A stretch of DNA of 64,000 nt, taken from positions 1-64,000 of the forward strand of contig NZ_JBBOPI010000002.1 of the NCBI RefSeq assembly GCF_038003525.1, written 5' to 3'. Source of the stretch: Solibacillus sp. FSL H8-0538. Its GTDB lineage: Bacteria; Bacillota; Bacilli; Bacillales_A; Planococcaceae. The notes beneath the pieces were generated by a model. That model was given only the letters and a program-made list of their open reading frames with translations, did no database searches and was not told the DNA's origin. Shown in pieces: positions 39,476 through 51,106 of the stretch. The position numbers were made by a program, and so were the translations under genes. Numbering within the stretch: the stretch's first letter is position 1; the number at the start of each line of letters is the position of its first letter.

Positions 39476-39610
39476 TTTGCATTTACGCTACTTTAATCAA
39501 AGCTCCACGGCGAAATAATTACAGAATTACTTCAACTGTAATCATTTGTTCATCTTCAGTTCAGATAGGCCCTGTATTCTATGAGTATCAACAGATTGGA
39601 GGGGTTAATT

Positions 39611-40645
39611 ATGAACCTCGCTTGGAAAGATATTAAGAAAAATAAAGTAAAATTTTTGATTTTAGGTTCCATTGTATTTCTCGTTAGTTTACTAACTTTT
39701 ATTATTTCTGGTTTGGCAAATGGCTTATCACAAGACAATGCTGCCCTCATTAAAGATTTACCCGAAGGACAATTTTATATGAGTGCAGACGCAGATGAAA
39801 CATATACTCTGTCAAGAATCGATCGTAGTATCCAAGATGAACTATTAACCAATCAAAAGGATGCTGTCGCGTTCTCAATTCAAATGGGCTTTGTAAATGA
39901 TGCGTCGGATAAGCAGCAAGGCGTAGCTTTTGTGACCTCTACTGATTCAAAGTTATTTGAAAATGTGAAACCTGGGGAAATACTATTAGATAGCTCATTG
40001 AAGGAAGCAGGTATAAAAGTAGGCGATACCTTAACGAACAATCAATTTAGTGGCGAGTTTGTTGTAAAGGGCTTTGTCGATCAAAAGAAATACAGTCATG
40101 CCCCTGTTGCTTATATTAGTATGGAGGATTACAAAGAAATGTACCGCGTGGAAGCAATGCAACTTGTTTTCGTGCCGGATGGGGATGTTTCACATGAAAT
40201 TGATGGATTACAGTCATTTTCTACTAAAGAGTTCCTAGGTACAAACCCAAGTTATAGCGCAGAACAGATGTCTTTAAATATGATTATTTGGTTTTTAGTC
40301 GTCATTAGTGGCATGTTGTTTGCAATCTTCTTCTACATGATGAACGTTCAAAAAATTGGGTTATACGGTATTTTAAAAGCAATTGGGTTAAAAACAAGTA
40401 CGTTATTCAAAATGATTTGGACGCAAATGCTGGTTATTACCGTCATTTCACTGATTCTGTCGGTTACACTCAGTCAAGTTTTCAATATGATTGCACCAAA
40501 AGGAATGCCTTTTAGTTTAACCTTTGAAACAACGACGCAATTGTCCATCGTTTTCTTAGTTATCGGATTTATCGGCGCGACACTCTCAGGTATACAAATC
40601 AAAAAAATCGAACCATTACAAGCGATACAGCAAGGAGAGGCTTAA
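39611..40645 (+). CDS. FtsX-type ABC permease
   Basis: A 344-residue permease: N-terminal NLAWKDIKKNKVKFLILGSIVFL, outside domain about 40-230, then three helices with the coupling loop NVQKIGLYGILKAIGLKTS. ATG at 39611 follows GGAGGGG; the longer frame has no good site. One base separates it from the ATPase gene. Similar to small LolCE/DevC-like exporters of unknown substrate. Confidence 0.92.
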   Translation: MNLAWKDIKKNKVKFLILGSIVFLVSLLTFIISGLANGLSQDNAALIKDLPEGQFYMSADADETYTLSRIDRSIQDELLTNQKDAVAFSIQMGFVNDASDKQQGVAFVTSTDSKLFENVKPGEILLDSSLKEAGIKVGDTLTNNQFSGEFVVKGFVDQKKYSHAPVAYISMEDYKEMYRVEAMQLVFVPDGDVSHEIDGLQSFSTKEFLGTNPSYSAEQMSLNMIIWFLVVISGMLFAIFFYMMNVQKIGLYGILKAIGLKTSTLFKMIWTQMLVITVISLILSVTLSQVFNMIAPKGMPFSLTFETTTQLSIVFLVIGFIGATLSGIQIKKIEPLQAIQQGEA

Positions 40646-40646
40646 T

Positions 40647-41333
40647 ATGACGCTATTTACAATTGATAATGTTCGAAAAACGTTTACGAACGGAGAAGTA
40701 TCGGAAGAAATACTAAAAGGAATCAACCTTACCCTTAGAGAAGGTGAAATTACCGCATTAGTGGGTGCATCAGGCTCTGGTAAAAGTACACTCCTTACAA
40801 TCGCTGCGGGACTTCAACCGTCATCCGATGGGCAAGTTCGATTCGAAGGCAATAATATGACTGCCATGAGTGCAGAGCAAGTTCGAAAAGTACGCGCAAG
40901 TAAATTTGGCTTTGTTTTTCAATTTGCACACCTGGTTCCTTTCCTTACTGTAGAAGAACAACTACTGCTAATGCTAGACGTTTCTGAATCGAAATTAAAG
41001 AAACACGAAAAAAACAAGGAAGTGAATCGCATCCTCCAATTAGTTGGAATGGACCATCGAAAACAGGCCTACCCTTCTTCATTGTCAGGTGGGGAGAAAC
41101 AACGGGTGGCTATTGCCCGCGCAATAATTCATAAACCGAAAGTTCTTTTCGCCGATGAACCCACGGCAAGTTTAGATTCCAAGCGCTCGAAAGATGTGAT
41201 GATGTTGATCAGAGATTTAACGAAAACACTAAACATTACTACGCTAATGGTGACACATGATGAAGAAATGCTCTCTTATGCGGATCAAATCATCAAAATG
41301 AGCGATGGTCTAATTGTGCAAAATGTAGATTAA
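40647..41333 (+). CDS. ABC transporter ATP-binding protein (LolD/DevA type)
   Basis: A 228-residue ATPase partner of the preceding permease. Walker A GASGSGKST, Q-loop FVFQFAHLVPFL, signature LSGGEKQR, Walker B VLFADEPTASLD and switch THDEE are all present. Followed by a terminator. Probably a separate two-gene operon placed next to the two-component-linked exporters. Confidence 0.94.
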   Translation: MTLFTIDNVRKTFTNGEVSEEILKGINLTLREGEITALVGASGSGKSTLLTIAAGLQPSSDGQVRFEGNNMTAMSAEQVRKVRASKFGFVFQFAHLVPFLTVEEQLLLMLDVSESKLKKHEKNKEVNRILQLVGMDHRKQAYPSSLSGGEKQRVAIARAIIHKPKVLFADEPTASLDSKRSKDVMMLIRDLTKTLNITTLMVTHDEEMLSYADQIIKMSDGLIVQNVD

Positions 41334-41362
41334 ATCCTACACTTCAATCTAACATTTCGAAC

Positions 41363-41393
41363 TACCACAGCCTTTTGGGTTGTGGTTTTTTTG
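41363..41393 (+). terminator. Rho-independent terminator
   Basis: ACCACAGCC and GGGTTGTGGTTTTTTT form a stem with a T run 30 bases past the ATPase stop. Confidence 0.9.
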
Positions 41394-41399
41394 CGGATA

Positions 41400-41470
41400 A
41401 AAATGGTGCCATTCTTCTCAAAAACTTTTCCATTCTGCGCAAACCGCAATCGAAAAGAAACCGTATTTCG
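41400..41470 (+). repeat. Relic of the 3' end of the MerR-like coiled-coil family
   Basis: GCCATTCTTCTCAAAAACTT and TTCCATTCTGCGCAAACCGC match the DNA that encodes PFFxKLFxSxQ in the gene at 5256 and the relic at 46930. No frame is open. Confidence 0.6.
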
Positions 41471-41560
41471 TTGCCTCTATGCTCGTGATGAACGCTTTTC
41501 TGAGCAGCGTAATTCAACCAAGCGTATCCAAATCTTTTAGAAGCGTACATAAACACAATG

Positions 41561-41589
41561 AAGCCCCCTAAACGTTAATTTAGGGGGCC
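41561..41589. terminator. Hairpin of the CGTTAATTT-loop family
   Basis: AAGCCCCCTAAA and TTTAGGGGGC pair, 46 bases past the Abi gene stop on the minus strand. Confidence 0.65.
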
Positions 41590-41634
41590 TATCCATTTCA
41601 TCTATAATCGGTGGTTAATAAAATTAAATAGATG

Positions 41635-42594
41635 TTATATTAATTCGTTCCATTTGTCCACTAATCCCATTTCTAACAGAATAGCGTCGAAACTAATGGA
41701 ATTAAACTTAGGTGAGTAAGTACAAATTATCTTAGTAATATTTTTAATCATTTTCTGATGTTCCTTTTTAGGCAATACGAGTTTCAAAAAGGATAGTACC
41801 GTAAAAATATTCCCTTTATCTAGTAAATGAATTCCAAGAGATAAGGCTTTGGCGATATCCGCAGAAGGAGCAGGCTTATGTAATTTGAAATTATAAAGAC
41901 GCTCTTCGTGAGCACATACATTTCTAAAATACGTTACAGTTTTCAAAGTGCTTTCTAACATATCCGGTGTATAGTGAATTACGTTCCCATAATCGCGTTT
42001 ATAAGAAATAGCAAAATCTTTAGCGATGGTATTCTGTAGCGAGTTGTCGAGGCAACTGTAGAAATACTGCATGTTTCCAATTGTCAAATAGTTTACTAGC
42101 ACCCACAAAGGTACACCATCATGTTTGTCCAAATAATGCGCAATCGATCCTTTTTTCTTTCCATTTTTTGAAATAGTATTTGAGATGGTGGAAATTAAAC
42201 TTAAAACGTCTTTTAATTTAGTTTGATGGCGCGTATAGTTTTTTAAAATTAAATACGCATGTGGTTCTTTGTATTTTTCAGAAAAACGATAGGCAATTTT
42301 TGATTTTATATTAGATTCAAATTTTAAAAGGTATTCTAATAGAGTATTTCTCAAATCTCTATCGAAACTATATAATTCATAGATTTCTTCAAATGTAGCA
42401 TTAGGTATGTAAGTTTCGGGTATTTTATTTTTCGCTATCGCATCCTTTACTAAAAAAAAGTCCTTGTAGCCGTTTATTACAGCATAATAGCTTTCATTTT
42501 CAAGGATACGTAACGCTTTAGAGCCATTGTTTATTTTAAGACCCCTAGCTCTTAAAATTGCTAATTGTTGGCGATGAGTTTTAAATGGTTTCAA
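41635..42594 (-). CDS. Abi_2-family (AbiD/F) abortive infection protein
   Basis: A 319-residue protein of the Abi_2 family that aborts phage infection. The N-terminal KTHRQQLAILRARGLKI and LRILENESYYAVINGYKDFF are the family openers. RNVCAH near residue 222-227 fits the Rx4-6H site of HEPN ribonucleases, so RNA cleavage is the likely activity. The upstream spacing is short and AGGGGTG precedes the start region. A lone defence gene; flanked by relics of the MerR-like family on both sides. Confidence 0.88.
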   Translation of the reverse strand: MKPFKTHRQQLAILRARGLKINNGSKALRILENESYYAVINGYKDFFLVKDAIAKNKIPETYIPNATFEEIYELYSFDRDLRNTLLEYLLKFESNIKSKIAYRFSEKYKEPHAYLILKNYTRHQTKLKDVLSLISTISNTISKNGKKKGSIAHYLDKHDGVPLWVLVNYLTIGNMQYFYSCLDNSLQNTIAKDFAISYKRDYGNVIHYTPDMLESTLKTVTYFRNVCAHEERLYNFKLHKPAPSADIAKALSLGIHLLDKGNIFTVLSFLKLVLPKKEHQKMIKNITKIICTYSPKFNSISFDAILLEMGLVDKWNELI

Positions 42595-42714
42595 TTTATT
42601 AATTCACCCCTAAACAGAAAAATGGCCCATACCTCGTAAGGAAATGGACCGGATCGGTAAGATCATTATAGTATATGTAAAATGCATTATCAAGATACTG
42701 ACAAAATAATAAAC

Positions 42715-42778
42715 GTACTATCCCACACTGGAAGTGGAGGTTGGTTTGATGTCACCGATGGACAGTTACGTTTATAAA
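42715..42778 (+). repeat. Relic of the HTH part of the MerR-like family
   Basis: GTTGGTTTGATGTCACCGAT and nearby bases match the DNA for GWFDVTDAQLRY in the genes at 2403 and 5256, with frameshifts. Only about 60 bp survive. Confidence 0.8.
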
Positions 42779-42783
42779 TAACC

Positions 42784-43716
42784 ATGTTAAAAAATACGCA
42801 AGAGGTGATTCATATTAGAGAATTTCTAACAATTAATCATAATAAGATTGAGGTTTTTCAAAAAGGAACAAATGGTACGCCAATCATTATCCTTACAGGG
42901 ATGGGTTGCTCATTTGATGAGTGGTACGATGTTACGGAGTCATTAAGTAAATCAAATCGAGTAGTACTGTTTCATAGACCTGGGCTAGGTGCGAGTGAAA
43001 TTCGACAGGAAGTCCGTAATACACAGGCGGTCGTAAACGAATTAAATGAGTTGATGCTTCTACTTGGCATACTTGAACCCGTGATAGTAGTTGGTCATTC
43101 CTATGGTGGTTTATGTACCCAGCATTTTGTGAAAGTGCATCCTAGAAAGGTGGCAGGAATCGTATTAGTAGATTCAACTTCTGTTGACTTAAAGGTCTTA
43201 GACGAGTTGGATATACCCGTTTTGAATGGAGGTTCAACTGATGAGGTTTGGGCGGAAAAATGTGGTTCTTATTCTTTAATGACACAGGAAGAATTAAGAA
43301 AAATCATTAATCCCACGCTTACAATAAAACAAAAACAATTCCCTTTGGATGTCCAACAACGTTTACTAGATTTCCAGATTAATCCTCATTTATACAAAGC
43401 AATGCATTCTGAAATTACCAACTGGAAGAAAGACGCAGATACGATCAAGAACCTAGGGGAATTTCCTAATGTACCTTTAATTGTAATTGGTCGTGATAAA
43501 GAACATACCATTAGGTTAGGCACGGAGGATGGCTTACCAGAGGCGGAGTTACGGTTATTTGAAGAAACATGGCAAGAACTAATTACGGACCAAGTAAAGC
43601 TTTCTCAAAATAGTAAATTGATAGTAGCGAAAGATGCAAGTCATTCCATACATATGGATAGACCAGATATTTTGATTGAATCAATAACTTGCCTGGTTAA
43701 CGATCCTTCCTTCTAA
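42784..43716 (+). CDS. Alpha/beta hydrolase
   Basis: A 310-residue hydrolase with nucleophile elbow GHSYGG (Ser near 111), oxyanion region TGMGCSFDEW, acid region near IVIGRDKEH, and catalytic His in DASHSIHMDRP near 290. The ATG at 42784 has no ribosome binding site and abuts the MerR-family relic. A better AGAGGTG at about 42801 points to a start a few codons later, where only ATT is available. The start is therefore uncertain. Ester or amide substrate unknown. Confidence 0.85.
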   Translation: MLKNTQEVIHIREFLTINHNKIEVFQKGTNGTPIIILTGMGCSFDEWYDVTESLSKSNRVVLFHRPGLGASEIRQEVRNTQAVVNELNELMLLLGILEPVIVVGHSYGGLCTQHFVKVHPRKVAGIVLVDSTSVDLKVLDELDIPVLNGGSTDEVWAEKCGSYSLMTQEELRKIINPTLTIKQKQFPLDVQQRLLDFQINPHLYKAMHSEITNWKKDADTIKNLGEFPNVPLIVIGRDKEHTIRLGTEDGLPEAELRLFEETWQELITDQVKLSQNSKLIVAKDASHSIHMDRPDILIESITCLVNDPSF

Positions 43717-43920
43717 TTGCATCTATGGTCGTTGTTTCTAGTACAGCTCATCCATTCTTTGAAGTATCGTCTAGTGCAGTATATGGTAAAATGAGGAGAA
43801 TTTTTAGGAGCCATTGATATACCAACATTTATAGAGGGAGGAATTTAAAAACGAGAAAAATCCCATTCTAGGACAGCCATATTAGTAAAATAAGCTTTAG
43901 CTACTCCAACAAAAATAGCG

Positions 43921-44145
43921 CCATCTTTCATTGCTAACATGTTGAAGGGTATTTCTGCTGGAAAATTATTTATTGAATTTCCAGCACTTATATCCACATG
44001 CGGGAAAGGTCGTTTATGGGCAAATAGCTTTTACCTAGAAATGATTGGTGCAATTTCAGAAGATGCGATTGAAACGTTTCTTCTAAAGAAGGGAAAGGTG
44101 AATAGACGACTGAATCTTTTTTATTATCAAATCCGTACATGTTAG
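43921..44145 (+). pseudogene. Remnant of an IS200/IS605 TnpA transposase
   Basis: A frame containing MLKGISAGKLFIEFPAL, then LWANSFYLEMIGAISEDAI, matches the second half of Y1 HUH transposases (KGxSARxLFxxFP, WSxSYYVGTVGxxSE). The N-terminal half with the HUH motif is absent. The interval 43717-43920 shows nothing else I recognise. Confidence 0.7.
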
Positions 44146-44172
44146 AAACAGTGAAAAGGAGTTTTGATTTTT

Positions 44173-44619
44173 TTGACTAAGACAAAAAATGTTTTACTTG
44201 GTGTTACAACAACTGCACTTACGCTTGTTTTAGCCGGGTGTAATTCGACGAACAATTATTCGAATAATAATCAATATTCGAATGGTAGCATCCCCCCTCA
44301 ACCTACAGATGCTAGTTGTCGGAATTGGGATTGGGATTCCGATGATGGCTTGTGGGAATGTGATGACCAAAATTCAAGTCATTTCGGGCATTATTATTAT
44401 GGTGGGAGTTATTACAGATCGGTGAATGGCTTGCTAAATAGCGCTGCTGGCAACAGTTATCGAAATAGTTCCCCCGCCTTCAATAAAGGCACTGGTACTA
44501 CCTCAACGCCTTCTTATTCAAATAGTGGCACTTCTAACAATAGCAGTCAAAGCTCATCTTTCGGGTCTACAAAATCAAGTTCAGGTTTTGGGAGCGGCTC
44601 ATCTAGTAGCGGTAGTTGA
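44173..44619 (+). CDS. YgiB/DUF1190-like lipoprotein
   Basis: Lipoprotein signal with lipobox VLAGC, then an Asn- and Ser-rich region, a cysteine pair (SCRNWDWDSDDGLWEC), Tyr/Gly stretch and a Ser/Gly-rich low-complexity tail. TTG at 44173 is preferred because it lies 11 bases after AAGGAG; another TTG is only 2 bases away. The C-terminal Ser/Gly tail and operon position resemble YgiB/YjfM lipoproteins of E. coli, which precede an ATP-grasp ligase. The similarity is by layout and composition, not proven homology. Confidence 0.65.
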   Translation: MTKTKNVLLGVTTTALTLVLAGCNSTNNYSNNNQYSNGSIPPQPTDASCRNWDWDSDDGLWECDDQNSSHFGHYYYGGSYYRSVNGLLNSAAGNSYRNSSPAFNKGTGTTSTPSYSNSGTSNNSSQSSSFGSTKSSSGFGSGSSSSGS

Positions 44620-44646
44620 GCTAATTTAATTTAAAGGAGAATAATT

Positions 44647-45045
44647 GTGAATTTATATCTTAATTTTTTAGCTTATCTTGGTGTAGGCGTTGGGTTATTA
44701 GTAATTGGTATGTTGTTATTTGCACTTAGCACACCAAAAATTAATGAATTCAAATTAATTGCAGAAAAAAATGTATCAGCTTCGTTATTACTAGGCGGTA
44801 AAGTCTTAGGGTTAGCCTTTGTACTTGGTTCTGCTGCGGAATATTCTGTTTCGATTATGGATATGGTTGTTTGGGGCTTGATTGGCATGCTGGCACAGGT
44901 TATTGTATTTTTCTTAGCGGAAGTTATAACGATTCGCTTTAGCATTCAAAAAGCAATTGAAGAAGATAACCGTGCAATTGGCACACTTTTAATGACACTT
45001 TCATTAGCAGTAGGCTGGATTGTGGCGAAGTGTCTTACTTATTAA
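44647..45045 (+). CDS. DUF350 membrane protein (YjfL-like)
   Basis: A 132-residue protein with four predicted membrane helices arranged as two similar pairs, as is typical of DUF350 (YjfL). GTG start with AAAGGAGA 7 bases upstream. It lies between the lipoprotein and the ligase genes, an arrangement also found around yjfL in enterobacteria. Role unknown; probably a membrane partner of the amide-forming pathway. Confidence 0.85.
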   Translation: MNLYLNFLAYLGVGVGLLVIGMLLFALSTPKINEFKLIAEKNVSASLLLGGKVLGLAFVLGSAAEYSVSIMDMVVWGLIGMLAQVIVFFLAEVITIRFSIQKAIEEDNRAIGTLLMTLSLAVGWIVAKCLTY

Positions 45046-45068
45046 TTGATTGATTGAGGTGAGATGTT

Positions 45069-45524
45069 TTGGGAAAATTGATTTATTACATAGATAAAGG
45101 GAACGGAAACTTTGAGCCCTTTGTTGAATATTCAAGTGAACATGTAGGCGCCGATGAATTTTATGCCCGCCAACTTTGTACATATTTCATCTACCGAGGG
45201 ACTCAATATGAACGTACGTCGAATGAGATGGAAAACGGACATAATGTGATTGTTGTTAAAGAACTTGGCCGTAACTTACCTGGTGAGCATGAGCGTAGTT
45301 ATCATGGAGAAGGGATTCACCTTGAATTCCGCAGCCCGAATGAAAAAGAAAACTATCGTTTAATTTCACGAATGCCCTGCAATACCCATTTTGATGTTAT
45401 GCATTATTTATTAAAAGATATTGTAGACATTCCAATGGTTGGTCAAATGCTCGTAACGTCGAATGAAATCGACGAAGATCGAGGCGCTTATGTTCTTTAT
45501 GTAACCGATTTAGAAGGGGCTTAA
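45069..45524 (+). CDS. Conserved-looking protein of the ATP-grasp operon
   Basis: A 151-residue soluble protein, TTG start with GAGGTGAGA before it. Segments include YIDKGNGNFEPFVEYSSEH, GEGIHLEFRSP and VTSNEIDEDRGAYVLYVT. No family recognised. It is 2 bases from the ligase gene, so it is very likely part of the same pathway, perhaps playing the role of YjfK/YjfI-type partner proteins. Confidence 0.7.
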   Translation: MGKLIYYIDKGNGNFEPFVEYSSEHVGADEFYARQLCTYFIYRGTQYERTSNEMENGHNVIVVKELGRNLPGEHERSYHGEGIHLEFRSPNEKENYRLISRMPCNTHFDVMHYLLKDIVDIPMVGQMLVTSNEIDEDRGAYVLYVTDLEGA

Positions 45525-45526
45525 TC

Positions 45527-46738
45527 ATGTATCAGACGAAACGACAACAATTTTACGATACGATTGAGGGCTTTTGGGCGAACCTTTACGATGAAGAATA
45601 TGCACTCTATGATATTAAGTATATGACAGCAGAAGAAGTCGCTCATGTTCGCCTTGCTAGTGAGCGAATTGGCGCGATCTATTTCAAAACGGTTACTTTG
45701 CTACGTAATGTTCCCGATGAAACCTTACTTGAAATGGGTTATCCAAAGGAAACGCTCTCTTTTATTCGCTTGCAGACTTTACCGGTGCCAAGTGTTATTT
45801 CCCGATTAGACCTTATTCCTTACAAGGGCAGTTACAAATGTATCGAAATCAATTCAGATACACCCACTTTTATTAAAGAGTTGTTTTCCGTAAATGCTGC
45901 GGTATGCGCTGAATTTAATGCTAGTAATCCTAATGAACAGATGGATGAATTATTGAAAAGGGCAGTACAAACGAGCTTGAAAGTAAGTTCTGGTCAGCCA
46001 GATCCACATATTGTTTTTACGGCTCATGAAGCTAATGTAGAAGACTATAATACTGTTTTATATTTGATGGAAGGGATACCAAATGCTACGTTTACGCCAC
46101 TTCACCAGCTCAAAATTCGCCAAGGTGTGGGGCTCTTTGATGAAAACGATAAACAAATTGATATTTTATATCGCCAAACGTTTCCTATTGAGAACTTAAT
46201 CCAGGACACGGACGCAGAAGGTAATGCAATTGGATTGTGGTTGTTAGAGTTAGTCGAGCAGAAGAAATTAGTCATTCTAAATCCACCTGAAGCCTTTTTA
46301 CTTCAAAATAAAGCGGTGCAAGCTATCATATGGGGCTTGCACGAAGAAAAAAATCCTTTCTTTACGAGTATTGAGCATGAATGGATTGATGAATATTTCC
46401 TTCCTACATATTTTGAAGCAATTCCATTTATTGAGCAGAATATTTCATACGTTAAAAAGCCATCGTTTGGACGAGAAGGCGATACGGTTGAAATCTTTAA
46501 TGGCTCCGGTAATTTACTGTTAGAGGATAATCAGAAGTCGTATCGTCAATACACGCCAATCTATCAGCGCTTTATTGAACAACCCAAAACGCAATTCCAG
46601 AGTAACAAGGGCGTTCAACACGGACAATTGCTTATAGGTAGCTTTTTGTTGAATGGCAAGGCGGGGGCGATAGGGTATCGCGTAGGCGGTCAAATTACAA
46701 ATAACCTTTCGTATTATTTGCCATTAGGAATAAAGTAA
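45527..46738 (+). CDS. Glutathionylspermidine synthase-like ATP-grasp ligase (YjfC/YgiC-like)
   Basis: A 403-residue ATP-grasp amide ligase of the Gsp synthetase-like family. Signs are the YKCIEINSDTPTF substrate/Mg region, NPPEAFLLQNKAVQAIIWGL, and the ATP-binding KKPSFGREGDTVEIF near residue 308. It lacks the amidase half of true bifunctional Gsp synthetase. Bacilli do not make glutathione, so it probably joins another acid to an amine. Last gene of the operon with lipoprotein, DUF350 and an unknown protein. Confidence 0.9.
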   Translation: MYQTKRQQFYDTIEGFWANLYDEEYALYDIKYMTAEEVAHVRLASERIGAIYFKTVTLLRNVPDETLLEMGYPKETLSFIRLQTLPVPSVISRLDLIPYKGSYKCIEINSDTPTFIKELFSVNAAVCAEFNASNPNEQMDELLKRAVQTSLKVSSGQPDPHIVFTAHEANVEDYNTVLYLMEGIPNATFTPLHQLKIRQGVGLFDENDKQIDILYRQTFPIENLIQDTDAEGNAIGLWLLELVEQKKLVILNPPEAFLLQNKAVQAIIWGLHEEKNPFFTSIEHEWIDEYFLPTYFEAIPFIEQNISYVKKPSFGREGDTVEIFNGSGNLLLEDNQKSYRQYTPIYQRFIEQPKTQFQSNKGVQHGQLLIGSFLLNGKAGAIGYRVGGQITNNLSYYLPLGIK

Positions 46739-46801
46739 AAAGTAAGCTCGAACCGAGAAATTATTCTTAGTTCGGGCTTTCTGTATACGTTGGTTTGTGC
46801 A

Positions 46802-46925
46802 TTATTTTCTTGGTAAATTCACTTCAAATATTGTGCCAACGTTCAATTTGCTGGCCACACTTATCGTGCCTTTGTGTTTTTCAACCATTGTTTTCACGAT
46901 TGATAAGCCTAACCTTTCTCCACCA
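46802..46925 (-). pseudogene. 3' tail of a histidine kinase gene
   Basis: On the minus strand this reads GGERLGLSIVKTMVEKHKG then TISV, SKLNVGTIFEVNLPRK and a stop: the G2 box and end of a kinase ATPase domain. All else is gone. It is joined head to head with the next relic. Confidence 0.8.
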
Positions 46926-46929
46926 ACAA

Positions 46930-47199
46930 AACAATACATTTCTTACCGAATCTTTGCAAGAAGTAGAAAAGTTTTTAGGGCTAACGGAACAGCCGGTGCA
47001 GAAAAACAAGGCATTAACAGCAAAAATAGAAGAGATCCTCATACCATTAAAAAAAGATATCGCCCCTACTATCAGCGGAAAACACATTGAACAAGCACCA
47101 TATATTGCTAGAAAACCAACCTTGGCGAAAGATGCAGCAAAAAAAACGTTGCCATTCTTCGGAAAACTTTTCTATTCTGCGCAAATCGAAATGGAATAG
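46930..47199 (+). pseudogene. 3' part of a MerR-like coiled-coil gene
   Basis: Reads NNTFLTESLQEVEKFLGLTE, then KNKALTAKIEEILIPLKK and the family tail TLPFFGKLFYSAQIEME, then a stop. It is homologous to the end of the gene at 5256. No start or HTH. Confidence 0.75.
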
Positions 47200-47363
47200 G
47201 ATTTAACGACGCTAGATTTCCATATAAGGAGGCTTTATGTACTGGTCCTCAACACAATCCATGGTCTGACACGTCTTCGCTTAATTTTAATTTTATTGAT
47301 TTCATCGAGGTATAGGTGTAAGTTTTAACAAGGAATAAAAGGTAATTTATTCAAAATAAAGAA

Positions 47364-47694
47364 ATACAGACCCAAATGGAATATGAGTCATGTGAAGGTA
47401 TCATCCAGTATCTCGATGAAGGGATTGAAGAAATGAAGTTGGAAACATTACTGTATTATTATCTACTTACAATCATAAACAAGAAAAAGTATTTGAAGGT
47501 GACTTGTCGGTATTGATTAAGCGATGAGGATTTATTAAAAGTAGGTGAAAATAATCTACTAATAACTCCAATCACGAATTATGGGTTAGAGTATTTTCTT
47601 AATTTTATGTTTAGGTTGGTTCTTATTCCACTAGCGGGTGCATTACTGGAACAACAGAAATGCTATTCTTATTGTGCTAACAAAGAAAATTAAT
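47364..47694 (+). pseudogene. Frameshifted gene fragment of unknown family
   Basis: QTQMEYESCEGIIQYLDEGI then MKLETLLYYYLLTIINKKK in one frame; VFEGDLSVLIKR in the second; and DEDLLKVGENNLLITPITNY then GLEYFLNFMF in the third, ending at TAA 47694. The order suggests one decayed gene with two frameshifts. Bases 47200-47363 show nothing more. Confidence 0.45.
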
Positions 47695-47798
47695 GAAAGG
47701 AGAACAAGAAGTTGTCAGTACTAATAAGCCACTTGTCTTCTCTTTCAATGTTGTATTACTGATGATAAAATATCAAACAAGTAAAATAGCTATTCAAA

Positions 47799-48245
47799 CT
47801 ATAACAGTTTTACCGGTACACATATTTCGCAATAATGGTTGTTTACCATATCCTCAGTATATCTTTCCAAAATGGGTTTGTTATCAATTTGATATCCACT
47901 TATTTGTAGAGCAGAAAAAATATGAGCATATGCTTTTTGAATCTCTTCGGCTGTATGTTTGACTTCATAAATAAGGTATTTTCCACCAGCAAGTTCACCT
48001 TCACAAATTGAATCATCCAGTTGATAATCCTCTGAAATCACAATACAAGCATCAAATCTACAGTTTTCAGGCAGTGTTGTCTCAGGGTTATCTTGTTGAA
48101 TTGCAAGTATCATTGCCGAAAGATTTTTCTCTTTTACCCAATTTTTTAACTTCTCCATTACTTCAATATTTGCAGAACCATACGGACCAACTCGTCGCAC
48201 GTAAGCCAAGCGATAGTTAGGGAGTGTTTCAACTTTAAACTTCAT
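47799..48245 (-). CDS. GyrI-like small-molecule binding protein
   Basis: A 148-residue stand-alone effector-binding domain of the GyrI/SbmC/BmrR-C type. Signs are VETLPNYRLAYVRRVGPYG at the start, CRFDACIVISEDYQLDDS in the middle and GGKYLIYEVKHTAEEI. Such proteins bind or hydrolyse small toxic molecules. ATG at 48245 is chosen because GAAAGGAAAA lies upstream; the longer frame is likely spurious. Confidence 0.88.
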   Translation of the reverse strand: MKFKVETLPNYRLAYVRRVGPYGSANIEVMEKLKNWVKEKNLSAMILAIQQDNPETTLPENCRFDACIVISEDYQLDDSICEGELAGGKYLIYEVKHTAEEIQKAYAHIFSALQISGYQIDNKPILERYTEDMVNNHYCEICVPVKLL

Positions 48246-48367
48246 ACATTCTTTTTTCCTTTCTTCATTTGAATTTGTTTGGTACATTTCGAATGTAACA
48301 TGCTTAAAAAATATAGACACTTTATTTTTTAAAAATTTATAATTACCCTTATTTAACTAACGAGGTC

Positions 48368-48456
48368 TTATCTACAGTACATTTGTCCACAGCTTTAATA
48401 ATATTCAATTATACAAAAATAGCGTATTTACTATCTTCAAAGCCTATTTATCTACA
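48368..48456. other. Three DnaA-box-like sequences
   Basis: TTATCTACA (48368-48376 and 48448-48456) and TTGTCCACA (48383-48391) each differ by one base from the DnaA box TTATCCACA, all on the same strand, in an AT-rich gap of about 490 bp with no gene. Could be a titration site, an old origin or chance. Confidence 0.35.
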
Positions 48457-48736
48457 GTCATTATTTATAGTATTTAACGTACACAACGTTAGGACTGTAC
48501 ATCGAGGGGGTAGGTATAATAGGCTCTTTTGCCATATGAAACAACGGCTTCCGCTTTTCCTGGTTGAACATGCCCACAGAGGGTCCATGTCAAGTTCTAT
48601 ACCACATAAATTCGCACACATTTACACAAAGATAAGAGTGCTATTCTAGCAGCACGATTACTGCCAATACTGTAAATATGGAGCAGGTTAGTTGAAGGAT
48701 ATGGTAAGATGAAAAAAAGATTTTAGGAGGAATAAA

Positions 48737-49042
48737 ATGGTTACATGCTATTTGAAGTATGTCATTGATCCTTATAAAGTAAATGAATTTGAAGAATACG
48801 GTAAAATGTGGATTCCACTTGTAAATAAATTAGGTGGTACACATCATGGCTATTTTCTGCCACATGAGGGTGCGAATAATATTGCGTATGCCTTATTCAC
48901 TTTCCCGAGTTTAACAGCATACGAAGAGTACCGAGTGAAAATGGCATTGGATGAAGAATGTCAAGCAGCATTTAAATTTGCCGAAGAAACTAAATGTATT
49001 TTAAGTTATGAGCGAAGCTTTATGCGCCCTGTATTTAAGTGA
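48737..49042 (+). CDS. NIPSNAP-family protein
   Basis: A 101-residue ferredoxin-like dimeric barrel protein. MVTCYLKYVIDPYKVNEFEE then YGKMWIPLVNKLGGTHHGYF is characteristic of NIPSNAP proteins. TTTAGGAGGA precedes ATG. Function in bacteria is unclear. The 230 bp that follow show no gene. Confidence 0.88.
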   Translation: MVTCYLKYVIDPYKVNEFEEYGKMWIPLVNKLGGTHHGYFLPHEGANNIAYALFTFPSLTAYEEYRVKMALDEECQAAFKFAEETKCILSYERSFMRPVFK

Positions 49043-49274
49043 CTCTACGAGAACGCTGAAAATACTTTAATCATCCATTGGAAAGCTAACGGATGCATGG
49101 TTCCGAGATCTTTTTCTTTGCAAATTAGTCACAGAAGCTCTCTATAACGATTCAAGCCGGTTCTACTTTACACAACATCAATTAATACCTTATTATAAAT
49201 CAATTGCAGAACTTGAGAATGATCATTCTTGACTATCAGCTGCTGCACGAGAAATTAGTGAGAGGTGTTCCTTG

Positions 49275-49868
49275 ATGACAAATAGTAAAATGAATCCTAA
49301 GGTAGATGCATTTTTAAGTAAAGCGACAAAGTGGAAAGAAGAATATGAGCAGCTGAGAAATATCGTTTTCGACTGTGAGCTGACCGAAGAATTTAAGTGG
49401 ATGCATCCTTGTTACACGTTTGAGACAAAAAACATCTTGTTAATACATGGATTTAAAGAATACTGTGCCCTTCTGTTTCACAAAGGTGCCTTGTTACAGG
49501 ATACGCATGGCATTCTAATCCAACAAACAGAAAATGTACAGGCAGCACGCCAAATTCGGTTCACCAATGCTCAAGAAATCGTTGAAATGGAGACGATTTT
49601 GAAAGCCTATATTATTGAAGCCATTGAAGTTGAAAAAGCCGGTTTAGAAGTGAGTTTTAAAAAGAATACAGATATCATAATTCCGGAAGAACTTCAAACG
49701 AAATTCGATGAAATCCCCGCCTTGAAAACGGCTTTTGAAGCCTTGACACCGGGAAGACAAAGAGCATATATTCTTTATTTTTCGGGGGCTAAACAATCCA
49801 AAACCCGAGCGTCCAGGGTTGAAAAATATATACAGCCAATTCTCAATGGAATGGGCTTAAATGATTAG
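49275..49868 (+). CDS. YdeI/DUF1801-type protein
   Basis: A 197-residue protein with an N-terminal DUF1801 (YdhG-like) domain (MNPKVDAFLSKATKWKEEYEQ split over 5-26; WMHPCYTFETKNILLIHGF) and a C-terminal YdeI/OmpD-associated segment (FEALTPGRQRAYILYFSGAK, SRVEKYIQPIL). In B. subtilis such proteins are linked to stress and iron effects, but the biochemistry is not known. ATG at 49275, just after TTG, follows GAGGTGTTCC. Confidence 0.9.
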   Translation: MTNSKMNPKVDAFLSKATKWKEEYEQLRNIVFDCELTEEFKWMHPCYTFETKNILLIHGFKEYCALLFHKGALLQDTHGILIQQTENVQAARQIRFTNAQEIVEMETILKAYIIEAIEVEKAGLEVSFKKNTDIIIPEELQTKFDEIPALKTAFEALTPGRQRAYILYFSGAKQSKTRASRVEKYIQPILNGMGLND

Positions 49869-49892
49869 TCTATTCGATGCGATTAGAAAGAC

Positions 49893-49921
49893 ACATCTCG
49901 CCCAAAATAGGGCGAGATGCC
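49893..49921. terminator. Hairpin after the YdeI-like gene
   Basis: CATCTCGCCC and GGGCGAGATG pair around a 7-base loop; no T run. The remaining gap to 50323 holds a second hairpin near 50073-50103 and REP-like repeats. Confidence 0.5.
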
Positions 49922-50149
49922 GTCCTTACTTATCTACAAATAAATCAATCAAATTCCAAGAGATTCCCTCACGTTACGTGCATTCTAAATTCCAGTTTGG
50001 ATCGCAAGTAACACTCGTTGTTGATTTGAAATAAAGTTTGATCGTTTATAAAAAAGATTAATAATAATCCCCTCTTTCGTTATTCTTTGAGGTGATTTTT
50101 TATTGGTTAATTATGTTAAAGTAGATGTTTATCTTGTGATGAAATGTAC

Positions 50150-50222
50150 TTAAACTAACGGGTACTTTAGTTGAAGATCATCTTACTGCTTATGCTACTC
50201 TTTCTTATTGAACTAATGGGGA
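50150..50222. repeat. REP-like palindromes
   Basis: TTAAACTAACGGGTACTTTA with GTTGAAG (50150-50176) and a half copy CTTATTGAACTAATGGG ending at 50220. Confidence 0.65.
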
Positions 50223-50323
50223 AGGATCTGTTTTCATTCATTGTTGATTTTTGACCAAAGAAAAGACCGCACATGATATGAGCGGTAAATCGAACTATCA
50301 TTATCCTTTGTTGAAGTAAACTA

Positions 50324-51106
50324 TCATCCAATAAATTGGATTAGTAGCTGGTTGAACTTGTCACGTTCTTCATAGAAAGGAGCATGGCCGCTGTATTGAA
50401 ATGGGACGAGCTGTGAATTTCTTATTAATTTGTTTGTTTCTTGTGCATTTTTAAAAGGAACAACTTTATCATGTATGCCGTGAATAATTAGCGTAGGGAC
50501 TAATATTTTGCCAAGATCATTGTACACATTCTCATCTCTTAATGACATCATGACCGCAGCAGTCGACCAACCCGCAGCTTGTAAGCCTAGCTGAAAGAAC
50601 CAATCAGATAATGGCACAGTAATATACTGGAAGAAGAAAGTGTCCGTTAGTCCCAGCAACATATTAGGACGATCATTAAGTGTTTCTGTAATGAACGTAT
50701 TTGCTACTTCTTCTTGTACACTAGACGGAGATTGAGCGTCTATTAGGACAAGTTTTGAAACGCCATAACCTTTATATCGAGCCATATATCGAATTGAGAT
50801 CGCGCCTCCTGTGGAGTGTCCAGCTAGTGTGAAGTCTTTTAACTGCAACGCCTCTACTACTGCATGGATATCATCTGCCAATCTGTCAAAACTGTAGCCA
50901 TTGAATGGTTTATCCGAATTACCGAAACCCCTCCAGTCAATCCCTATACATCGATATCCCATTGCTGGAAGAACATTAAACTGATATTCAAACTGCTTAT
51001 GGTTTAATGGCCAACCGTGTATAAATAGAATGGTTTTATTTCCCTCCTGGTTTACATCCTCTACATATATTCTTACACCAGGTTCCACTGTAACAAAGTA
51101 TCCTAT
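50324..51106 (-). CDS. Alpha/beta hydrolase with probable ATA start
   Basis: Esterase/haloperoxidase-like hydrolase: oxyanion FIHGWPLNH, nucleophile GHSTGG, acid in HGIHDKVVPF and His in YSGHAPFYEE. A good GGAGGG lies 6 bases before an in-frame ATA (51104-51106) that begins IGYFVTVEPGVRIYVED. Relatives typically start MGYxVxVE, so ATG appears to have changed to ATA. The next possible start is GTG at 51088, which has no ribosome binding site. Translation may be weak; the protein body (254 residues from GTG) is intact. Confidence 0.85.
   Translation of the reverse strand: MGYFVTVEPGVRIYVEDVNQEGNKTILFIHGWPLNHKQFEYQFNVLPAMGYRCIGIDWRGFGNSDKPFNGYSFDRLADDIHAVVEALQLKDFTLAGHSTGGAISIRYMARYKGYGVSKLVLIDAQSPSSVQEEVANTFITETLNDRPNMLLGLTDTFFFQYITVPLSDWFFQLGLQAAGWSTAAVMMSLRDENVYNDLGKILVPTLIIHGIHDKVVPFKNAQETNKLIRNSQLVPFQYSGHAPFYEERDKFNQLLIQFIG

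Follow-up and report, generated by a model that had tools for sequence, protein, structure and literature searches.

What does an ATP-grasp ligase related to glutathionylspermidine (Gsp) synthetase join in a Gram-positive bacterium in which glutathione is an unlikely partner? This question is raised by a four-gene operon of Solibacillus sp. FSL H8-0538, located at 44173-46738 of the analyzed stretch of DNA (hereafter the window, the initial 64,000 bases of the host's second contig, which has 191,584 bases; the host genome is 3.93 Mb in size and 99.96% complete). Here, we describe a Ser/Gly-rich C-terminal tail that is shared by the lipoproteins encoded next to this ligase in several bacterial phyla and in phages. 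The presence of this tail in the ligase neighbours at a nearly fixed distance from the protein end suggests that the ligase modifies it. The features of the locus are as follows:

44173..44619, + strand: lipoprotein precursor of 148 amino acids, TTG start, lipobox LAGC, rich in Ser, Gly and Asn
44584..44616, + strand: C-terminal tail of this lipoprotein, GFGSGSSSSGS (GFG plus 8 residues), candidate ligase substrate
44647..45045, + strand: DUF350 membrane protein (YjfL family), 132 amino acids, PF03994 E-value 2.4e-34
45069..45524, + strand: g3, 151 amino acids, without Pfam family, two tandem repeats
45069..45275, + strand: repeat 1 of g3, about residues 1-69, from hhalign of the halves
45312..45521, + strand: repeat 2 of g3, about residues 82-151, with an S-x-E-x-DED-R motif, from hhalign of the halves
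45527..46738, + strand: ATP-grasp acid--amine ligase (GSP_synth family), 403 amino acids, PF03738 E-value 8.5e-49, best PDB match YgiC (7uk8)

As an earlier note on this DNA had claimed, the four open reading frames (ORFs) are co-directional and tightly spaced, with gaps of 27, 23 and 2 bases. Its assignments of the second gene to DUF350 and of the fourth to the ATP-grasp ligases were confirmed by the Pfam matches (118.7 bits for PF03994 against a cut-off of 26, and 167.1 bits for PF03738 against 29.3). The note had also regarded the ligase as different from Gsp synthetase, which agrees with our results: the Gsp synthetase/amidase model NF007801 gave 28.2 bits against a cut-off of 882 and covered only positions 251-577 of its 619, and the closest solved structures were E. 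coli YgiC (7uk8, E-value 3.6e-12) and YjfC (7uk6, E-value 5.7e-8). Residues R93, D95, E107, N109, K311, R316, E317 and R385, which we take to be catalytic or metal/phosphate-binding positions of Gsp synthetase, are present in the window ligase and in 69-73 of 73 ligases, and D111, scored likewise, is present in 63. The closest named relative among the four found (genome_contigs) is from Solibacillus faecavium, with 65% identity. A predicted structure of the ligase (predicted local distance difference test, pLDDT, 57.6) was not used. For the first gene, the note's comparison with YgiB/YjfM held in part: a lipobox is located at ...LTLVLAGC, but membership in DUF1190 was not confirmed by Pfam, as no family, PF06693 (DUF1190) included, was matched at an E-value of 1 or lower. 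The protein does carry a GxG tail near its C-terminus, a feature that is proposed here for DUF1190-type neighbours and is not Pfam's. Its TTG start was chosen because the homologues begin with M-x-K-T-K-K.

The window lipoprotein ends with SSGFGSGSSSSGS, and its relatives end with SSGFGSGSKSFGG. Similar tails were found in E. coli YjfM (SRGGYGRSSSARGHWGG) and YgiB (RGGFG...SSRSMGG), and on plasmids of Vibrio, Rhizobium, Sulfitobacter, Pseudomonas, Arthrobacter, Asticcacaulis, Acinetobacter, Roseomonas, Trichormus and several Bacillota; a Deinococcus plasmid has GGL-T in place of GxG. The tail occurs on DUF1190 proteins as well as on proteins without any Pfam match. In 15 lipoproteins of Bacillota, the mean identity was 0.685 in 14 tail columns versus 0.446 in 73 body columns. 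No earlier mention of the shared tail was present among the titles and beginnings of abstracts listed, a set that does not extend to the primary YgiC/YjfC papers.

Ligase neighbours were then scored by a tail rule, which requires the motif [GSAQT]G[FWYILV][GST] within the last 35 residues, at least 70% small or basic residues and at least 35% Gly plus Ser in the last 20 residues, and a gene on the same strand no more than 1,700 bases from the ligase. Positives were obtained in 28 of the 32 loci of set A and 28 of the 38 loci of set B, compared with none of 97 decoy genes and one of 224 ORFs of the host contig, namely the window lipoprotein itself. When the rule was held fixed and applied to phages fetched later, all three loci were positive (three proteins among 18 coding sequences). 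In total, the tail was thus detected at 59 of 75 ligase loci, which come from phages and five phyla. This total includes L028 and L060 (Leptolyngbya plasmid), which belong to neither set and are both negative under the fixed rule, even though the protein upstream of the ligase in L060 ends with RVSGMGSSRSGGASS. The core G[FWYIL]G is present in 55 of the 59 tails and lies 6-12 residues before the carboxyl end in 50 of these 55. Moreover, 38 tails end with GG (vs 0/224 contig ORFs) and 41 with Gly, and Asp and Glu are absent from the last 10 residues in 58 of the 59 (vs 79/224), while they make up 12.6% of the bodies of the same proteins. With almost no Asp/Glu in the tails, a graspetide-like side-chain ring was considered unlikely. 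Within 1,700 bases, the core motif alone was detected in 29/32 and 31/38 loci, but also in 9/441 contig ORFs. A test that was later replaced, based on the core within 900 bases, gave 25/32 and 29/38 loci versus 9/194 and 5/83 distant ORFs; the window lipoprotein, located at a greater distance, was missed, and part of the hits clearly belonged to other proteins.

In a midpoint-rooted ligase tree of 73 tips, one clade (20 tips) comprises YgiC and YjfC along with further ligases of Pseudomonadota, actinobacteria, Deinococcus and phages, and a second, separate clade (42 tips) contains mostly Bacillota, including the window ligase. Tail-positive loci account for 56 of the 62 tips in these two clades and for 3 of the 11 tips outside. 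Among the tips outside are L084 and L085, whose ligase is located beside a gene that resembles glutamate--cysteine ligase by eye. Of the misses within the two clades, four (L040, L059, L102 and L105) have a visible tail and fail only through a Lys before GxG, and in two (L033 and L100) no tail could be seen by eye.

The gene set, the active-site positions, the tail with its spacing and ligase linkage, and the duplication and linkage of g3 were read from sequence; from these we infer a reaction, its substrates, an order of events and roles for DUF350 and g3. The ligase would activate the carboxylate at the very end of the lipoprotein tail, through the acyl phosphate intermediate expected of the ATP-grasp family, and would then link it by an amide bond to a polyamine, probably a triamine from the carboxyspermidine-type route of the host. 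The C-terminal carboxylate is the presumed target because its distance from the motif is narrow and no other carboxylate is nearby, and the enzyme would recognize its substrate by the GxG motif that lies 6-12 residues before the carboxyl end. Capping would occur in the cytoplasm, where g3 might serve as an adaptor handing the precursor to the ligase, and prior to export; after export and lipidation, the capped lipoprotein would stay at the membrane, and DUF350 (together with a K+ channel in some relatives) may act with it in an envelope response. We give close to an even chance that the lipoprotein tail and a polyamine are the true substrates of this ligase. On a broader scale, we tentatively propose, at a little under even odds, a widespread C-terminal modification in bacteria and phages, in which YgiC, YjfC and their Bacillota relatives would join a polyamine to a partner lipoprotein ending with G-(F/W/Y/I/L)-G-x(6-12)-COOH, with g3 as an extra adaptor in Bacillota. 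If true, this would identify the natural substrate that is still missing for YgiC and YjfC. If the lipoprotein is the substrate, many genes of the 'glutathionylspermidine synthase family' in bacteria and phages would gain a function, and polyamines would serve to cap the ends of surface proteins. The tail pattern, if upheld in a blind survey, would also turn a vague 'polyamine pathway' into a specific and cheaply testable reaction.

As to the amine, NspC was identified in the host (519.5 bits vs a cut-off of 409), adjoining a carboxynorspermidine-synthase-like gene (393 bits, below the cut-off of 800); the latter precedes NspC at L048:27-2349, on host contig 1. The host can thus probably make a triamine via a carboxyspermidine-type route, and a polyamine is a possible partner of the ligase. 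A polyamine is also suggested by the annotation of the E. coli relatives YgiC and YjfC as peptide--spermidine ligases and by the phage Motura cassette described below.

Several points speak against capping of the tail by a polyamine. Neither gene linkage nor a common tail is proof of a substrate and the reaction is a predicted one, while ATP is inside the cell and the finished tail outside. The tail rule was written once sets A and B had been read, its composition term partly builds in the depletion of Asp/Glu, and many loci are related, so that the counts are not independent. The literal motif noted before set B was found in 22/32 loci of set A and 10/38 of set B; with Arg and Trp allowed, the numbers were 24/32 and 20/38, and either version matched 1/441 contig ORFs. 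Ser is the last residue in 17 of the 59 tails, the window tail ends with GS instead of GG, and L033, L100 and L028 carry the ligase with no tail protein found. With regard to the polyamine, the host has neither an S-adenosylmethionine (AdoMet) decarboxylase nor a spermidine synthase family match, and triamine routes do not track the ligase: AdoMet decarboxylase or NspC was above the cut-off in 56 of 61 genomes, comprising 17 of the 18 relatives with the ligase and 39 of the 43 without it. Such co-occurrence is uninformative and thus neither supports nor weakens a polyamine substrate.

Some of these points would fit a different reading, which we consider possible but doubtful: the ligase makes a free conjugate of a polyamine with an ordinary small peptide, for polyamine storage or stress, and the lipoprotein is a separate envelope part whose tail binds the cell wall or an envelope protein such as DUF350. 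Gsp synthetase uses free glutathione, and Gss, which belongs to the same ATP-grasp ligase family as the window ligase, joins spermidine to the C-terminal Gly carboxylate of a free tripeptide and also has an amidase domain. A 2023 study by Pederick, judging from its title, reportedly deals with peptide-spermidine ligase activity of YgiC and YjfC. Likewise, the K-12 RefSeq record annotates both proteins as peptide--spermidine ligases, and they have been termed peptidylpolyamine synthetases (PMC12568646; this and the other papers below are represented by excerpts). A table entry that cites Sui 2012 lists YgiC as lacking Gsp synthetase activity (PMC12506659), and no natural substrate of YgiC or YjfC is named in the literature excerpts covered. 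The location of the finished tail outside the cell would also agree with a free conjugate. On the other hand, DUF350 is not found beside the lipoprotein-ligase pair in E. coli ygiBC and several plasmid units, which implies that the tail does not serve DUF350 alone, and the neighbours across phyla share the tail but not the body. The joining of a protein tail to a polyamine has a counterpart in eukaryotes, where the C-terminal Gly-Gly carboxylate of SUMO is joined to spermidine (+127.147 Da; PMC12270671). This ATP-driven conjugation of a Gly-Gly carboxylate resembles the reaction proposed here but differs from the window system in using E1/E2 enzymes and a ubiquitin-like protein.

It is unlikely, in our view, that the ligase acts on the tail but adds something other than a polyamine, such as an amino acid, an amino sugar, phosphatidylethanolamine or a cell-wall amine. 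The missing AdoMet decarboxylase and spermidine synthase and the even spread of triamine routes would be in line with such an amine; NspC in the host and AdoMet-decarboxylase-linked variants on record (PMC11237479) argue for a polyamine. A further argument is provided by Achromobacter phage Motura, in which genes for a homospermidine synthase, a tail lipoprotein, the ligase, a small protein and DUF350 occur in succession (L108:596-4189); the lipoprotein is DUF1190-like (20.9 bits vs a cut-off of 22), and the coupling of the synthase to this cassette suggests a polyamine as the amine. The synthase-ligase pair of Motura has been read as a potential for glutathionylhomospermidine in a virosphere paper in PNAS (PMC9992855).

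It is improbable that the tail is only low-complexity sequence typical of Ser/Gly-rich lipoproteins and irrelevant to the ligase. The rule does use composition, and the 14 other lipobox-like ORFs of the background sets, with the core motif in 0/13 and 0/1, are too few to judge lipoproteins in general. However, the absence of positives among the 97 decoys, the single hit among 224 contig ORFs (the window's own), the narrow spacing to the end and the higher conservation of the tail than of the body all argue against this explanation.

Regarding glutathione, no gamma-glutamylcysteine ligase of PF04262, which we take to be the family of GshF and of E. coli GshA, was found in the 99.96% complete host genome (other ligase types and glutathione uptake were not searched), and BshC, for bacillithiol, is present. 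Glutathione is therefore an unlikely partner of the ligase, in support of the glutathione-free host that the note had expected. True Gsp synthesis like that of E. coli gss has in its favour the common Pfam family PF03738 and is very improbable given the lack of PF04262, the presence of BshC and the 28.2 bits versus 882 for NF007801.

We also examined the neighbourhoods of related ligases. Among 21 related loci (L020-L040), g3 was found beside the ligase in 16, the lipoprotein in 17 and DUF350 in 17, and this recurrence exceeds chance. A survey of the four-gene neighbourhood had been suggested beforehand, and the set indeed recurs in relatives, though in two orders: lipoprotein-DUF350-g3-ligase in the nearest relatives of the window and g3-lipoprotein-ligase-DUF350 in others. 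The smallest unit observed consists of lipoprotein and ligase, as in E. coli ygiBC and in plasmid pairs without DUF350 listed alongside. Of the 30 loci with a placed ligase (31 loaded), 7 have a K+ channel-like gene no more than about 6 kb away; three of these genes were scanned and matched models for potassium channels, each below the cut-off. The ligase is present in 18 of 61 relatives, the host genome counted, and PF03738 was matched in 42 of 398 genomes across the phylum (34 over the cut-off). A lipoprotein profile searched against the 61 relatives gave 13 matches, 11 of them within the 18 ligase-bearing genomes; in the other 7 of these 18 no match to the profile was found. The two matches outside, G042 (E-value 1.4e-5) and G028 (E-value 9.1e-4), have neither ligase nor tail and may be unrelated lipoproteins caught through their signal peptides.

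The enterobacterial gene order that had been ascribed to the window does not apply. In E. coli K-12, the operon is yjfI-yjfJ-yjfK-yjfL(DUF350)-yjfM(lipoprotein)-yjfC(ligase); it has in common with the window DUF350, a lipoprotein (YjfM ends with SRGGYG...GG) and a PF03738 ligase, but differs in the order DUF350-lipoprotein-ligase, in the presence of DUF2170, PspA and DUF2491 genes and in the lack of g3. The ygiB-ygiC pair shares lipoprotein and ligase with the window, YgiB ending with RGGFG...MGG, but lacks DUF350 and g3, and YgiB belongs to DUF1190, unlike the window lipoprotein as judged by Pfam. The claim of an undescribed system is also not supported for the operon as a whole: ligase neighbourhoods with DUF350, a DUF1190 lipoprotein called metal-chelating and a K+ channel were described by Ravi 2024 (PMC11237479), along with variants without the CesT/Tir-PspA pair and AdoMet-decarboxylase-linked variants. 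CesT/Tir (DUF2170) and PspA genes were not found beside the window ligase among eight flanking proteins scanned (39581-51088). Variants of Ravi 2024 carry DUF4247/DUF2617 or band-7, unlike the window, in which no Pfam match to DUF4247/DUF2617 was obtained for the window proteins or for 17 g3 members. Section 19 of that paper mentions neither a shared C-terminal tail nor any family matching g3 (PMC11237479). In Pseudomonas, the bac operon, which begins with DUF2170 and PspA-like genes, has been linked to biofilm formation (PMC10948618). Overall, a known module is represented here by a Bacillota variant, in which g3 is a new gene family.

The third gene, g3, had been left unassigned and suggested to define a Gram-positive version, and both points hold: it matches no Pfam family at an E-value of 1 or lower, and it marks the Bacillota version. 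Its 17 homologues gave only three single-member matches (best E-value 0.055), and no signal peptide was seen by eye. The two halves align as profiles by hhalign (E-value 4e-11; score 55, where 100 column shuffles reached at most 15.6), and g3 is therefore an internal duplication. Ten columns are invariant in the 17 sequences, including S131, E133, D135, E136, R138 and Y144. An AlphaFold model from five sequences (pLDDT 64.8) has, with low confidence, beta-beta-alpha-beta-beta in each half. A fold assignment was rejected as too weak, the best PDB match being protein L with a Z of 6.5 over one half only. In the 398 genomes drawn across the phylum, g3 was found in five, each time 69-743 bases from a ligase match. 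Among 71 loci chosen for the ligase, it was present in 21 at E-values of 1e-42 or lower and marginal in L069-L072 (0.0015-0.0081). A search for g3 relatives in viral contigs gave 60 pattern matches, none of them related.

The ligase was also detected in 44 phage records, such as T4-like Aeromonas phages, an Ochrobactrum phage and large Bacillus phages (including hits H120-H124), and a tail lipoprotein was found near the ligase in phage loci L107:1066-3367 and L109:1154-3334. A rhomboid protease gene is located within the yjf-type operon of the Pseudomonas plasmid pQBR103 (L090:475-1029). Two tail proteins on actinobacterial plasmids (L094:2501-2998 and L095:2376-2879) are annotated as 'tRNA-dihydrouridine synthase'; that of L094 has no Pfam match, and this is likely a misannotation. 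In L021 and L066, a different exported-looking protein precedes the ligase and still ends with SSKSGFGG, and both loci also carry a second lipoprotein-like gene and a K+ channel-like gene. The ligase of L036, L076, L077 and L078 lies within long ORFs (822-943 amino acids), and two PF03738 matches, in a tandem or fused form, were observed there in genomes G050, G149 and G365.

As for the surroundings of the operon, no tRNA was found on the 191,584-base contig, and no terminal overlap was detected at the lengths tried. Comparison of window positions 40000-64000 with known plasmids gave small matches only, and a scan for promoters and terminators showed no excess relative to shuffles. An Abi_2 family (abortive-infection-like) protein is encoded upstream of the operon (41635-42594, - strand), and directly past the ligase (about 46800-46920, - strand) there is a stretch that resembles by eye a C-terminal fragment of a histidine kinase (LGLSIVKTMVEKHKGTISVASKLNVGTIFEVNLPRK).

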